Below are positions 26,459-30,856 of a DNA stretch of 64,000 nt, piece by piece (the stretch's first letter is position 1; each line of letters opens with the position of its first letter). The stretch covers positions 310,001 to 374,000 of the forward strand of contig NZ_JAAVUW010000003.1 in assembly GCF_018449605.1 (NCBI RefSeq), in the 5' to 3' direction. Source of the DNA: Luteibacter sp. dw_328 (GTDB lineage: Bacteria > Pseudomonadota > Gammaproteobacteria > Xanthomonadales > Rhodanobacteraceae). The translations under genes were made by a program, and so were the position numbers. Below the pieces are notes generated by a model. That model did not search any database. It was not told the origin of the DNA and saw only the letters and a program-made list of their open reading frames with translations.

Positions 26459-26522
26459 TGTCTCATATTGAAAGAATGGAACCGTCCGTTATGCTGACGG
26501 TCCGGAAAGCCATGGATCACCG

Positions 26523-26912
26523 ATGCGCGCGCTGCTTCTCGTCGTCCTGGGACTGGCCGTAGGTGCCATGGGCGCCACCTTTGCCCTGTCGGCCCTTCGT
26601 CAGGGCACACCGTTCCACAGTGGGGTGATGGCCGTCATGCAGCACCACATGGGCGTACTGCGGGGCAACGTGCGGGCGAAACAGTGCGATGCCAAGGGCA
26701 GCGCCGACCATCTGTCTCGCATGCGCGAGACGGCCGGTGATATTCGCCAGGCCTTCCCGGACATGGAACCCGCGTTCTTCCAGGCCGACGACGGCCTGCT
26801 TAAAGCCCTCGACGGTGCCGTCGCCGCCGCGCCTGGCACCTGCGAGGCCCTCGTCGCTGCCTTGAAACCCGTGGGGGACGCCTGCCAGTCCTGCCACCAG
26901 CAATTTCGCTGA
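26523..26912 (+). CDS. Exported c-type cytochrome, class II (c'-like)
   Basis: A 129-aa protein with an N-terminal hydrophobic segment (MRALLLVVLGLAVGAMGATFA) and a helical body. A single C-terminal heme-c site CQSCHQQFR gives the class II (c-prime or c556) layout, in which the heme motif is at the C-terminus. It ends 1 bp before the ATG of the sensor kinase gene at 26914, so it is very likely the first gene of that operon. Confidence 0.85.
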   Translation: MRALLLVVLGLAVGAMGATFALSALRQGTPFHSGVMAVMQHHMGVLRGNVRAKQCDAKGSADHLSRMRETAGDIRQAFPDMEPAFFQADDGLLKALDGAVAAAPGTCEALVAALKPVGDACQSCHQQFR

Positions 26913-26913
26913 G

Positions 26914-28284
26914 ATGACGGGAACCCCTCCCGAGAGGCCCGCTGGCTTCATACGCATGCAGTGGTGGCTGCTGGTGCGCGCCATGGCGCGCTTCGAAACC
27001 ACCATGTTCCTGCGCACGCGCTATTCGCAGCCCAAGATGGTCGCGATCGGCGTGGTCGGCAGCTTCTGCCTGGCCGTCTATTACCCGGTCTGGGCCTATC
27101 TCTTCCCGCAGCCGTACGAAAACCTGCCGATGCGCCTGGTCTGCAGCGCCACGTTCATCCCGCTGGCCTTGCTGCCCTGGTGGCCGCGCCGACTACGCAC
27201 GCACCTGCCGACCTACTGGTACTTCGCCATGACGGTGGCGATGCCCTTCTTCGTTGGCTATATGACCCTGCGCAACGCCACGCCGGCGTGGCTCATGACC
27301 CATCTTGCCTGCGTGATGCTACTGATGATGCTGTTCGACATCGTCAGTTTTCTGCTTGTTTTCAGCATCGGAAGCCTGCTCGCCGGCCTGGTCTTCGTGC
27401 TTTCCCCCGAGGCGCACCTGCACACGCAGACGATGCTCGAGTACCTGCCCCTGCTGTTATTCGGCATGGTCGGAGGCGCCACCTGCACGGTCTCCTCGAC
27501 GATGGCCGAACAGTCGCGCATCGAAGCGCTGACCGCCGCCTCGAACAACATCGCCCACGAACTGCGCACGCCGCTCGGCTCACTGCGCATCGCCGCGCGC
27601 GCCGTCGCCCGCTTCATGCCCGACCTCATCCGCAGCCATCGCCTGGCCGAGGGCGAGGGCCTGCCCGTTCCGGAACTGCGCGCTCAAAACCTGCATGCGC
27701 TGGAGCGCAGCATCGGCGTCATGGAGCGCGAGGTGACCTACGCGAACACGATCATCGACATGCTGCTGCTCTCCGCCCGACCGATCGGTGAGGTGCCACT
27801 GATTCCCCTCACCGCCCGCGAATGCGTGGAGCAAGCCCTGCGCCGCTTCCCGTATGGCTCGCGCGCGGAACGCGAGCGGATCACCCTGTCACCCACGGGC
27901 GACTTTCGGCTCCTCGGCGAGGAGAGCCTGGTGGTCCACGTACTGTTCAATTTGCTGCGCAATGCACTTTTTCATACCGATCGGGCGGGCAAGGGCGACA
28001 TCGGCGTGTTCATCGAGCCCGGCGAGCGGGCCAGCCGCATCCGTGTCCATGACACGGGTCCGGGCATCCCGCCGGACGTCGTTCCCCGTATTTTCAACCG
28101 CTTCTACTCGTATTCGAGCGATAGCCCGGGAACCGGATCGATCACCGGGCTAGGAATAGGTCTCGCTTTTTGCCGCGCGGCGATGGAGCATATGGGAGGT
28201 GGCATCGTCTGCCGAACCAATCTGGGTGAATTCACCGAATTCACCCTAACCTTTCCGCATGCGGAGACCGGGGACCGGCAGTGA
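26914..28284 (+). CDS. CqsS/LqsS-like sensor histidine kinase
   Basis: A 456-aa kinase with about six membrane segments in residues 42-190. A dimerisation/phosphoacceptor box NIAHELRTPLGS (His215) and a complete ATPase domain follow (N-box LLRNALFH, DTGPGIPP, GLGIGLAF). The segment VYYPVWAYLFPQPYENLPMR closely resembles the membrane entry of Vibrio CqsS (YYFIWEYWFPQSYENL, from memory). That is the receptor of alpha-hydroxyketone autoinducers. Unlike CqsS there is no C-terminal receiver, matching Legionella LqsS. The synthase gene two genes downstream supports the role. Confidence 0.85.
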   Translation: MTGTPPERPAGFIRMQWWLLVRAMARFETTMFLRTRYSQPKMVAIGVVGSFCLAVYYPVWAYLFPQPYENLPMRLVCSATFIPLALLPWWPRRLRTHLPTYWYFAMTVAMPFFVGYMTLRNATPAWLMTHLACVMLLMMLFDIVSFLLVFSIGSLLAGLVFVLSPEAHLHTQTMLEYLPLLLFGMVGGATCTVSSTMAEQSRIEALTAASNNIAHELRTPLGSLRIAARAVARFMPDLIRSHRLAEGEGLPVPELRAQNLHALERSIGVMEREVTYANTIIDMLLLSARPIGEVPLIPLTARECVEQALRRFPYGSRAERERITLSPTGDFRLLGEESLVVHVLFNLLRNALFHTDRAGKGDIGVFIEPGERASRIRVHDTGPGIPPDVVPRIFNRFYSYSSDSPGTGSITGLGIGLAFCRAAMEHMGGGIVCRTNLGEFTEFTLTFPHAETGDRQ

Positions 28285-29321
28285 TGACGTTGAACTCGCA
28301 GGGCGATATCCAGCCCTTCCACTTCCCAACAACGACCTTCCTCGTGGATGACCACGAGGAGTACCTCGATGTCGTGCCTCTCCTGCTCGATCCGATGGTC
28401 CGTGTGCGCACCTTCAGTTCGCCGCGCAGCGCGCTGGCCACCCTGGGCAACAATGGCAGCCGCCCCGTTCCCGGCGGCGGCTGGCTGTATCGCTGGAAGG
28501 ACCGCCCGTCGGAAACACAGGAACTGGTGGCGCTCGATATCGACTCGATCCACCGGGTGGTTTACGACCCCGAGCGTTTTGCCGAGATTTCCGTGGTGGT
28601 GGTCGACCAGGCCATGCCCGAGATGGACGGCATCACCTTCTGCAAGCGCTTGCCGAATCCGCATATCGGCAAGATCCTGCTGACCGGCCGCGCCGACGAC
28701 GCCACGGCCATCGACGCCTTCAATTCGGGCGTGATCGACCGCTTCATCCGCAAGAACGACCCGCTAGCCATCGAAAAGCTGCAAACGGCCATCACCGAGC
28801 TGCAGCGCCGCTATTTCGAACGCGCCAGCGCCTTTGTCGCCGAAACCCTGGCACTGGGCAATTTCCGTTTCCTGCGTGACCCGGCCTTTCGCGAAGTGCT
28901 GCAGAGCGTAACCGCCACCTTCCAGCCGGTGGAGTGCTACGTGCACTGCAATCCGACCGGCCTGCTGCTGATCGACGCCTGGGGTATCGGCCGCTTCCTC
29001 CTCGTCCAGACCGACGAGGACCTGCGCACCCACTATGAAATTGCGGCAGATCTCGGCGCCCCCCAGACCGTGCTCGACGCCCTCCGCGGTGGCGAAGCCC
29101 TGCCCTGGTTCCGCTCGCGCGACGGTTTCTACCACAAGGGCGTGGAGAATCCGGAAGCCCACATGTACCCCGCCACCGCAGTCTCCGGCGAACAGTGGTA
29201 CTACTACGCGCTGATCGACGACGTGGAGCGCTTCCGGTTGCAACACATCAAGTCGTACCGGAGCTGGCTGCGTGAGCAGGACCTCAGCCTCTCGGCCGAC
29301 AGCCGGCCGCGCTTCATCTAA
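28281..29321 (+). CDS. Response regulator, LqsR-like, with atypical receiver and unknown output domain
   Basis: A 346-aa protein. The receiver acidic pair is Asp23-Asp24 (LVDDHEEY), the phosphoacceptor Asp109 (VVVVDQAMPEMDG), Thr135 (LLTGRAD) and Lys158 (FIRKND). About 50 residues are inserted between the first and third strands (about 50-100). The C-terminal half (about 170-346) matches no DNA-binding family I recognise, in keeping with LqsR-type regulators, whose output domain is not a classic HTH. GTG 28281 overlaps the kinase stop (GTGATGA); ATG 28284 is the alternative. Confidence 0.75.
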   Translation: MMTLNSQGDIQPFHFPTTTFLVDDHEEYLDVVPLLLDPMVRVRTFSSPRSALATLGNNGSRPVPGGGWLYRWKDRPSETQELVALDIDSIHRVVYDPERFAEISVVVVDQAMPEMDGITFCKRLPNPHIGKILLTGRADDATAIDAFNSGVIDRFIRKNDPLAIEKLQTAITELQRRYFERASAFVAETLALGNFRFLRDPAFREVLQSVTATFQPVECYVHCNPTGLLLIDAWGIGRFLLVQTDEDLRTHYEIAADLGAPQTVLDALRGGEALPWFRSRDGFYHKGVENPEAHMYPATAVSGEQWYYYALIDDVERFRLQHIKSYRSWLREQDLSLSADSRPRFI

Positions 29322-29356
29322 TCGGGCTCGTTTCTCAATAAGGAGGACGCCTTCGT

Positions 29357-29371
29357 ACCGGATCATCCGGT
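29357..29371. promoter_or_regulatory. Perfect inverted repeat upstream of the synthase gene
   Basis: ACCGGAT-C-ATCCGGT, 7-bp arms with a 1-bp centre, lies 223 bp upstream of the synthase ATG and 36 bp after the response-regulator stop. It is not followed by a T-tract, so it looks more like an operator than a terminator. An AAGGAGGAC sequence just upstream has no usable start codon after it. Confidence 0.4.
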
Positions 29372-29593
29372 GCGTCAGGTGTCCTTTGTCGTGCGTGGTC
29401 CCACGGTCGTTCCGACGCGTGGGCGCCACGACGTCTCTCTTGGTAATGGCACGAGGCCGGCATCCGTACGCGGATTCCGTAGGACGCCTCTCTCATCTTC
29501 ATGCGTCTGCCTGGGCGAGGCAGACGTGCGTGCGTCATCCGCAGGGATGTCGCCGTGGATATCGCCCATCCCCCTTGCCAGAGAGAGATAGTC

Positions 29594-30856
29594 ATGGAAA
29601 ACGTTTCCGTCCTGCATCGCATTGCCAAAGCACCGACGCTTCCTGAATTCGTTCAACGCAGGGTCGACAAATTTCACAACGAACGGGTTGCCATCGACTG
29701 GGGCGGCCGTCACATTTTGCGGGGCCGGCAATCGACGGATGCCGACCTGATGCTCCAGAGCAACGATTACCTGGCCATCGCAGGGCATCCCGCTATCGTC
29801 GAAGCGCAGCGCGAGGCGCTGGCCAGCGGCGGCCTCGGCATGATGATGTCGGCGCTGTTCCAACAACACGCGGATGACCCGCTGCATCGTGTCGAGGGTG
29901 AGCTCGCCCGTGCGGTCGGCAGCGAGGACGGCATCCTCGCCCAGTCCGGCTTTGCCGCCAACGTGGGACTTATTCAATCGATCGCGGGTGAGCGCGTACC
30001 CGTCTACGTGGACATGCTGGCCCACGCTTCGCTGTGGGAAGGCATTCGCAGCGCCGGTGCCAGGGCGGTCTCCGTCCTCCACAACGACATGACCCACCTC
30101 GAGCGACAGGTGATGCGAAATGGCCCCGGCGTCATCGTCGTCGACGCCGTATACAGCACCAACGGCAGCGTGGCACCGCTGGTCGAGATTGCCCGCGTCG
30201 CCCATGAGCACGGCTGCGTACTGGTCGTCGACGAGTCCCATTCCCTGGGTACGCATGGCGTGCGTGGCGAAGGCCTGGTGGCCAGCCTCGGCCTCAATCA
30301 CCGCGTCCACTTCATCACCGCCAGCCTGGCCAAGGCGTATTGCTCGCGCGCCGGCTTCATCGCCTGCACCACGGCGTTCAAGGACTACTTCGGCTGCGAG
30401 GCCCTCCCGGCGATCTTCAGTTCCTCCCTGTTGCCCCATGAACTGGCCGGTCTTTCCGCTTCGCATCGGGTCATCCAGTCGGAGGGCTGGCGTCGCCAGC
30501 GCCTGAGGCAGGTCACGCGACGCGTGCGCAGCGAGCTGACCGAACTGGGCTATCCCATCGCCGACGGCACCGAGCAGATCGTCGCGTTCGAAGCCGGCGT
30601 GGAGATCCTTACCGGGCGCGTGCGCGACGTCATGGAACACCACGGCGTGTTCGGTTCGGTGTTCAGTGCGCCTGCCACCACGGCCAACCGCTCATTGCTG
30701 CGCCTGACCCTGAATGCAGGCATGAGCGACGCCGATGTGGAGCGTCTGATCGACGTGTGCCGCGTGGCACGCGATGCCCTGGACCTGCCTGCATGGAGTG
30801 CCACGCGCCGGTTGTCTCGAGAGGCGGCCCGATCACTGTCGACCGAAGTGGCCTGA
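29594..30856 (+). CDS. cqsA: CqsA/LqsA-type alpha-hydroxyketone autoinducer synthase
   Basis: A 420-aa alpha-oxoamine synthase. It matches CqsA closely by eye: LPEFVQRRVDKF, LQSNDYLAIAGHP, YVDMLAHASLWEG, GPGVIVVDAVYSTNG and VDESHSLGTHG. The PLP lysine is Lys247 (ITASLAKAYCSRAG), and PAIFSSSLLPHELAG plus NGVFGSVF-like HHGVFGSVFSAPAT follow. CqsA condenses an acyl-CoA with S-adenosylmethionine to make CAI-1-type signals; LqsA makes LAI-1. It is separated by 272 bp from the kinase-regulator operon, so it may have its own promoter. Distinct from Kbl at 13219, which has glycine-acyltransferase motifs. Confidence 0.9.
   Translation: MENVSVLHRIAKAPTLPEFVQRRVDKFHNERVAIDWGGRHILRGRQSTDADLMLQSNDYLAIAGHPAIVEAQREALASGGLGMMMSALFQQHADDPLHRVEGELARAVGSEDGILAQSGFAANVGLIQSIAGERVPVYVDMLAHASLWEGIRSAGARAVSVLHNDMTHLERQVMRNGPGVIVVDAVYSTNGSVAPLVEIARVAHEHGCVLVVDESHSLGTHGVRGEGLVASLGLNHRVHFITASLAKAYCSRAGFIACTTAFKDYFGCEALPAIFSSSLLPHELAGLSASHRVIQSEGWRRQRLRQVTRRVRSELTELGYPIADGTEQIVAFEAGVEILTGRVRDVMEHHGVFGSVFSAPATTANRSLLRLTLNAGMSDADVERLIDVCRVARDALDLPAWSATRRLSREAARSLSTEVA

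Follow-up and report, generated by a model that had tools for sequence, protein, structure and literature searches.

A probable Lqs-type quorum-sensing circuit core to Luteibacter, with a predicted structured leader RNA before its autoinducer synthase gene

We analysed a 64,000-nucleotide stretch (hereafter the window) of the 5.05 Mb genome of Luteibacter sp. dw_328 (contig NZ_JAAVUW010000003.1, positions 310,001 to 374,000), in which a cassette of the alpha-hydroxyketone (AHK) signalling family, lqsS-lqsR-lqsA, occupies positions 26914-30856, all on the forward strand and in the order lqsS, lqsR, a leader RNA and lqsA. Taken together, the comparisons reported here make it probable that this is a complete Lqs-type quorum-sensing circuit that is core to the genus, with the dose of its synthase set by the leader RNA, and that it replaces the diffusible signal factor (DSF) made by RpfF. 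The initial annotation had placed a membrane kinase, an overlapping regulator and a synthase together at 26914-30856, and the location, strand, gene order and receptor segment that it quoted were right; it missed the lqsA leader, the conserved insertion site of the cassette and the relatives that keep only the receptor and regulator. At the protein level the circuit is a new member of a known AHK family; what is new is the leader RNA of lqsA and the existence of these receptor-only relatives.

The synthase gene lqsA (29594-30856, +) encodes 420 amino acids, and a family model, solved structures and a tree all class its product as a pyridoxal 5'-phosphate (PLP)-dependent AHK-type autoinducer synthase. 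It scored 536.2 bits against the NCBIfam model NF005526 (alpha-hydroxyketone-type quorum-sensing autoinducer synthase), for which the cut-off is 428, whereas its 232.6 bits against the BioF model fell below the cut-off of 426.45, and its best solved structures were those of CqsA, the V. cholerae cholera autoinducer-1 (CAI-1) synthase (3hqt and 2wk8, 354 bits). The lysine of its TASLAK motif is K247, which by homology with CqsA we take to be the PLP lysine. In a tree of 43 rows, which has some long branches and leaves 12 of its 40 inner branches open, a 100/100 branch split 29 AHK-type rows from 14 BioF/Kbl-type rows and the window LqsA fell on the AHK side, bearing out the earlier choice of a CqsA/LqsA-type enzyme over BioF or Kbl. 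Within that side it belonged to a Rhodanobacteraceae clade (9 rows, 100/100) whose sister was a six-row group with Cupriavidus (joint branch 95/94), neither the Vibrio nor the Legionella-like rows. Its closest named relative was the protein of Luteibacter sp. OK325 (93% identity), and both this relative and the clade agree with the Xanthomonadales-like host first proposed, here placed in the Rhodanobacteraceae. A PHROGs search with the synthase gave no match. The initial annotation had the end of the gene right but its start is better placed at the ATG at 29594, 3' of the Shine-Dalgarno-like GAGAGAGA (29581-29588, +), than at 29501, where another ATG lies in frame: from one species to the next, the interval between the two changes in length by amounts not divisible by three.

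Several further synthase-like genes were seen along the way. Two Luteibacter genomes carry a second lqsA-like gene (L226:5028-6197 in G021 and L227:5301-6485 in G020), 54% and 49% identical to the window LqsA; neither lqsS nor lqsR was matched in the 11 kb read around them, and they are probably separate acquisitions, since they are only 47% identical to each other. One Luteibacter synthase (L062, G017:C1:27022-28215) has an in-frame TGA, reflecting either decay or an assembly error, and in a Legionella-like genome (G100; L081, L143) the lqs locus is not the only place with a synthase-like gene: another scored 371 bits, under the AHK cut-off, and sits on a long branch.

Upstream of the synthase lie the genes for the membrane histidine kinase LqsS (26914-28284, +, 456 amino acids, containing YYPVWAYLFPQPYENL and the residues H215, W126, T129, F183 and C191) and for LqsR (28284-29321, +, 345 amino acids), a response regulator with an LqsR-type C-terminal part and the phospho-acceptor D108. 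The stop of lqsS and the start of lqsR overlap as ATGA, with the lqsR ATG at 28284 and an alternative GTG start at 28281. LqsR residues 10-335 aligned with PDB 6sy9 (E 3.9e-50), an entry labelled 'Response regulator' that we take to be Legionella LqsR; the locus L143 is called Legionella-like because its regulator resembles, by eye, the printed letters of that entry. The receiver domain scored 39.1 bits (PF00072, cut-off 30.2), and D108, the number given to the phospho-acceptor of Legionella LqsR in PMC3376566, is kept. LqsR was the most conserved of the three proteins across five Luteibacter loci compared: the window protein equals those of L009 and L056 at 345/345 residues while third codon positions differ by 22.0% and 19.7%, which argues for strong selection on the protein.

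In LqsS the HATPase_c domain was above its cut-off and HisKA slightly below (23.6 against 26.9), and the domain search of the kinase returned no receiver; together with the 6sy9 match this agrees with the earlier picture of an LqsS-like kinase without a receiver working with a separate LqsR. The protein aligned with CqsS/LqsS across both the membrane and the kinase parts, and its hydropathy profile has six peaks, two of them overlapping, for the six membrane helices expected of the receptor family. Over residues 36-195 it shares 20-34% identity with 16 receptors from outside the Rhodanobacteraceae, and W60, Q66, R74, N121 and F183 were invariant in 20/20 rows, all of them from loci with a synthase. 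Taking the roles of CqsS residues from PMC3376566, we found the W104 position kept as W126 and the F162 position kept as F183, while the F160 and F166 positions are Leu and Gly. The S107 position (T129) is Thr in 14/14 loci of Luteibacter, Pinirhizobacter and Oleiagrimonas versus Ser in 19/19 other rows, and the C170 position (C191) is Cys in the same 14/14 loci. According to the same paper, position 170 sets the tail length of the ligand and is Cys in V. cholerae. Since the receptor keeps the W104 residue and the Cys at 170, a C10-like tail is the best guess, and these residues suggest that the ligand of LqsS may be CAI-1-like.

The circuit is core to Luteibacter. In samples that overlap and include the source genome, lqsA was above the NF005526 cut-off in 23/23 Luteibacter genomes (one of them G017, with the in-frame TGA), in 3 of 14 other Rhodanobacteraceae genomes (one per genus) and in 26 of 61 genomes overall; it was above the cut-off in none of 24 sampled genomes from other families of the order. 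A wider family sample of 197 genomes contained lqsA in 31 at E 1e-100, in 5 of 26 genera, with 30 above the cut-off and one, G892, a fragment below it, and the gene was present in 8/369 genomes of a class sample and 16/398 of a phylum sample.

The initial annotation had seen AHK signalling as a second channel beside the DSF signals usual in this order, a view that the genomes do not support. Model NF006452 (PRK08788), which we take to be the RpfF-type model, reached at best 91.3 bits in the source genome, for a cut-off of 177. Because no RpfF-type synthase reaches the cut-off there, this genome has no RpfF-made DSF channel to which AHK signalling could be the second. In the same trial the model passed its cut-off in three of five genomes sampled outside the family but within the order, and in none of four from the family itself; one of the three matches, the control L168, gave 319 bits with the RpfF structure 3m6m. 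Among the 197 family genomes, 37 (in 5 genera) were above the cut-off and none overlapped with the 31 that have lqsA, on the assumption that the two draws of 197 were identical, as their handles are where listed. This lack of overlap is striking at the level of genomes; at the level of genera (5 and 5 of 26, none in common) it could be chance. In the source genome the AHK circuit would thus replace, rather than accompany, RpfF-made DSF; other routes to DSF and LuxI-type signals may exist beside it. A search of the source genome for a LuxI-type synthase gave no match, but its control was silent too, which makes it uninformative.

Between lqsR and lqsA we found a predicted structured leader of 114 nucleotides (29483-29596, +; covariance model R1, 102.6 bits, the window leader itself being a training row). 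A closing helix, P0, would pair the strand CTCTCTC (29488-29494) with 29581-29587, the greater part of the Shine-Dalgarno-like element. Inside it lie the hairpin P1 (29503-29527; 29503-29511 with 29519-29527), the P1 loop GGGCGA (29513-29518), which forms the 5' strand of a pseudoknot with TCGCCC (29562-29567), and, within the third loop of that pseudoknot, the hairpin P2 (29528-29556). Luteibacter leaders share P1 with its GGGCGA loop, P2 and a TCGCCC shortly 5' of the ribosome-binding site, and other genera of the family have the same plan in different letters.

The predicted pairings are supported by comparative evidence. Identical spacers were collapsed to 27, 24 of which made up alignment A1 (three lacked the loop motif), and alignment A2 held 30 rows, without L014, L019, L020 and L021. 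Alignment A3 comprised 36 model matches, and dropping three low-scoring reverse-strand matches, including the sole match of L021, left the 33 rows of A4, which was realigned with the covariance model and is thus biased in favour of its structure. Because the spacer before P1 is variable, several rows of A1 and A2 have P0 out of register. On a structure-free MAFFT alignment of 30 leaders, RNAalifold proposed a single consensus helix, five pairs between the P1 loop and the strand after P2, which is the pseudoknot. With one skipped inner pair added by hand, 93.3% of its 179 cells pair against 82.4% in shuffles (0/500 as high) and its covariation score is 0.410 against 0.231, while sliding it by 1-3 columns reduces pairing to 36-49%. 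Its pair types vary among leaders (G-C/G-U/A-U, G-C/C-G and A-U/G-C/G-U), and it is complete in 23 of 30 rows, the other seven having 3-5 of the 6 pairs. For the whole structure the unfitted alignment gave 74.3% of 953 cells paired versus 68.1% shuffled, with slid versions at 35-54%, and a covariation score of 0.228 versus 0.143 (0/500); the model-fitted alignment of 33 rows gave 73.0% versus 66.1%, with changes on both sides in 18 of 27 pairs. P0, a CCTCTC-type 5' strand facing a GAGAG Shine-Dalgarno, has at least 6 contiguous pairs in 26/33 leaders, and strands from the same species form longer helices than swapped ones (7.58 versus 6.56 base pairs, 0/5000), as in CTCTCTCGTT/AACGAGAGAG, ACCTCTCACG/CGTGAGAGGT and GACTCTTTCG/CGAGAGAGTC. 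The mean folding z of the leaders was -2.91, with 24/33 below -1.645. In predicted folds of genus g14 (L100, L102, L106), a downstream GGTCC offers the 3' side of P1 (GGACC) a second pairing partner, which would exclude P1, and this alternative fold is a possible switch.

Strong matches to R1 were tied to one gene. The source genome has a single strong match (102.6 bits) and the next, at 24.1 bits, was taken as chance. A search of the 197 family genomes, with stricter filters under which some weak matches were lost, gave 29 genomes with a match of at least 35.8 bits, all 29 directly 5' of lqsA by coordinates, and no such match among the 166 family genomes without lqsA; 13 weaker matches (24.7-30.3 bits) scattered over family genomes were presumed to be chance. 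Since most of the 29 leaders had trained R1, the informative results are that strong matches are absent elsewhere and that L019 and L020, which had not trained it, were matched; these are two of three leaders outside A2 that the model recovered: L014 at 67.2 bits (95% identical to its nearest training row, L010), L019 at 35.0 bits (71%) and L020 at 49.6 bits (65%). In 24 loci outside the Rhodanobacteraceae we saw no convincing match (best 16.3 bits). No Rfam family reached its threshold in the window, and the four Rfam matches near the leader up to E 10 were led by weev_FSE, with 20.6 bits against a gathering threshold of 40. On these comparisons the candidate leader is a conserved structured RNA without an Rfam match, and since it accompanies a single gene it speaks for a control of synthase translation that is specific to lqsA.

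The cassette sits at a conserved place. The window, L009, L021 and L022 share the order ThiF-family gene (tcdA-like, reverse strand), cytochrome c' gene (forward), lqsS, lqsR, lqsA and Mpo1-like gene (reverse), from which L155-L157 deviate at one or both flanks. The window copy of the cytochrome c'-like gene (26523-26912, +; CxxCH motif; PF01322, 37.7 bits, cut-off 26.5) ends one base before lqsS, so in the source genome the two could be translated together. In 17/17 covered family loci (the window included), and in 0/13 outside the family, a cytochrome c' gene precedes lqsS in the same orientation with no more than 402 bases between them. We considered whether it belongs to the circuit, with nitric oxide as an input of LqsS, and rejected this: the gene is family-wide (171 of 197 genomes, all 26 genera), and where the cassette is absent it adjoins the Mpo1-like gene, which directly follows it at 10 of 12 loci without lqsA, the other two keeping lqsS-lqsR. 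As it is common to 171/197 genomes and kept at cassette-less loci, it marks the insertion site; it is probably outside the circuit, and a nitric-oxide link is only remotely possible.

Loci that keep lqsS-lqsR alone were not confined to those two. Among 20 further loci, seven had lqsS-lqsR without lqsA (two from the same genomes again) and 13 had none of the three genes, and three more loci from genus g4 had lqsS-lqsR only. In all, the receptor-only state was found in 6/6 genomes read in genus g6 and 4/4 in g4 (ten loci), and the lqsA search of the 197 family genomes found none in either genus. The Mpo1-like gene lies 3' of lqsR in g6, with a peptidase M28 gene in between in g4 (L209). R1 did not find the leader in the seven receptor-only loci searched (best 11.2 bits, elsewhere). 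These loci keep the kinase His and the regulator Asp, although two g6 regulators are six residues shorter at the end. In 6/6 g6 loci LqsS carries R74H and F183L, with Ala both in place of T129 and at 191; in 4/4 g4 loci it carries F183M, with Ile in place of T129 and again Ala at 191. R74 (changed in g6) and F183 (changed in both) did not vary among the 20 rows from loci that have a synthase. The simplest reading of these sequences would be that the synthase was lost and that the receptor pocket then drifted or was retuned.

By analogy with its family, LqsA would condense an acyl-CoA and an S-adenosylmethionine-type substrate to an aminoketone or hydroxyketone, and the membrane domain of LqsS would bind this ketone and set the phosphorylation of LqsR at D108. 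The leader RNA, through P1, P2, the pseudoknot and P0 over the Shine-Dalgarno, would set the dose of LqsA at translation, the masking being suggested by the structure: the folded leader would allow little LqsA, and a cue, as we imagine it, would open P0. Several observations weigh against this account. Two of five pseudoknot measures fail against shuffles, namely double-sided changes (3; 389/500) and further pair types (7; 138/500). The pseudoknot pairs at only 3-4 of 6 positions in L022, L045, L105 and L101, and few events may account for its changes. P0 has fewer than 6 contiguous pairs in 7 of 33 leaders (L052, L018, L016, L066, L047, L010 and L014), L052, L014, L011 and L018 have a folding z near 0, like shuffles, and RNAalifold on the unfitted 30-leader alignment returned no P0, P1 or P2. 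The shuffles ignore relatedness, the 33-row counts rest on an alignment fitted to the model, and Pinirhizobacter (L021, G032) has lqsA with no R1 match at the leader.

Other explanations concern what the leader does. A tentative possibility, which leaves the Lqs circuit as it is, is that a base-pairing small RNA (sRNA) or an RNA-binding protein of the CsrA/RsmA kind docks on the leader, which would then not be a self-sensing switch, with the P1 loop GGGCGA as the contact. Strong leader matches before one gene only are what such gene-specific control predicts, and for V. cholerae PMC5467912 describes CAI-1 production as repressed at low density 'presumably via the Qrr sRNAs', yet the P1 loop changes in step with another strand of the leader, and contact with an external molecule would not by itself call for this. 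That the leader might instead be an RNA thermometer, in which heat melts P0 and frees the Shine-Dalgarno, seems quite unlikely: P0 does pair with the Shine-Dalgarno directly, and Legionella Lqs is said in PMC11237717 to regulate 'temperature-dependent cell density', but a covarying pseudoknot and a second hairpin exceed what a thermometer needs, and P0 has the lowest paired share among the helices (70.6% in the fitted and 65.6% in the unfitted alignment) and reaches 10-12 base pairs in some species. Very unlikely, in our judgement, is that the pattern reflects shared ancestry in a GC-rich spacer rather than a selected RNA structure. Relatedness does inflate the shuffle tests, four species fold about like shuffles and the unfitted consensus is the pseudoknot only; against this, slid controls drop the pseudoknot from 93% to 36-49% and the whole structure from 74% to 35-54%, and the differences between genera are compensated and the P0 strands matched by species.

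To the idea that the synthase makes a non-signal acyl aminoketone, for instance an antimicrobial, while LqsS and LqsR answer to something else, we give little credence. Two genera keep lqsS-lqsR without lqsA, and the extra lqsA-like genes of two Luteibacter genomes have no lqsS or lqsR match within the 11 kb read, both of which such a product would accommodate. However, the LqsS proteins without lqsA have changed otherwise invariant residues (R74H with F183L in g6, F183M in g4), as expected if the LqsA product is the ligand, and of the 20 loci read around synthases, 19 have a neighbouring homologue of lqsS and 11 one of lqsR.

The leader also resembles H-type pseudoknot riboswitches, with a first loop of one base, no second loop and a hairpin in the third loop. 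In the SAM-II and preQ1-II riboswitches a hairpin loop pairs with a downstream strand and the Shine-Dalgarno is masked, and preQ1-II, an H-type pseudoknot, has a hairpin in its third loop; unlike these, neither of which was among the four Rfam matches near it, the leader has strong matches before one gene only. It might form a new ligand-sensing class, an H-type pseudoknot riboswitch through which a metabolite controls the making of a quorum signal. The likeliest metabolite would be one that LqsA itself consumes or releases, such as S-adenosylmethionine, a breakdown product of it or an acyl-CoA, and lineages that lost synthase and leader would have retained the receptor while adapting its pocket to a different ligand. 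We regard this version as unlikely as a whole; if true, the riboswitch would let the cell signal only when signalling is affordable.

The window circuit can be compared with known systems. It shares with Legionella Lqs the three protein families and a kinase without a receiver acting beside an LqsR-type regulator with D108. In the Legionella-like L143, however, lqsA is opposite in strand to lqsR and lqsS, whereas in the window all are on one strand, and in L. pneumophila hdeD lies between lqsS and lqsR (PMC3376566), whereas in the window the two overlap. At the CqsS W104 position the window has Trp and Legionella LqsS, according to the same paper, has Ser, as does L143. From two named Vibrio loci, CqsA is 43-45% identical to the window synthase and the membrane part of CqsS 29-32% identical to that of LqsS, which keeps W104 and has Cys at position 170, the residue reported for V. 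cholerae, with Thr in place of S107; both Vibrio kinases carry a receiver, which the window LqsS lacks, and no LqsR homologue was found at the two loci. Homologous AHK clusters have been described in environmental bacteria (PMC3376566 and PMC3566124), among them Janthinobacterium jqsA-jqsS-jqsR and the Cupriavidus cluster, which the window resembles in this respect and of which the Cupriavidus group is the sister in the synthase tree. Deletion of jqsA alters violacein, and cqsA and lqsA complement it (PMC3566124). The leader sets the window apart from Cupriavidus-type clusters, given the lack of a convincing match in the 24 loci outside the family, a set without Janthinobacterium. A literature search, not exhaustive, partly at title level and with subscription papers mostly outside its coverage, found no paper on AHK signalling in Luteibacter or the Rhodanobacteraceae, and none, judged by title, on a cqsA leader RNA.

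A sigma-70 promoter scan made no call before lqsA and found one promoter-like site, at 26468-26495 before the cytochrome c' gene, for a chance level of 0.7. Many Luteibacter share a second conserved block 5' of the leader (window 29430-29457, GTCTCT...GGTAATGGCACGAGGC), where the scan makes no call; this block may be the promoter or an operator of lqsA.

In an order known for its DSF signals, these results make AHK signalling a core trait of one genus, and a single family offers a natural contrast between AHK genera, DSF genera and receptor-only genera. The synthase-less receptors, with their changed invariant residues, point to the ligand site, and with the leader an autoinducer synthase would come under control at translation, a model that the compensated pairings make directly testable.

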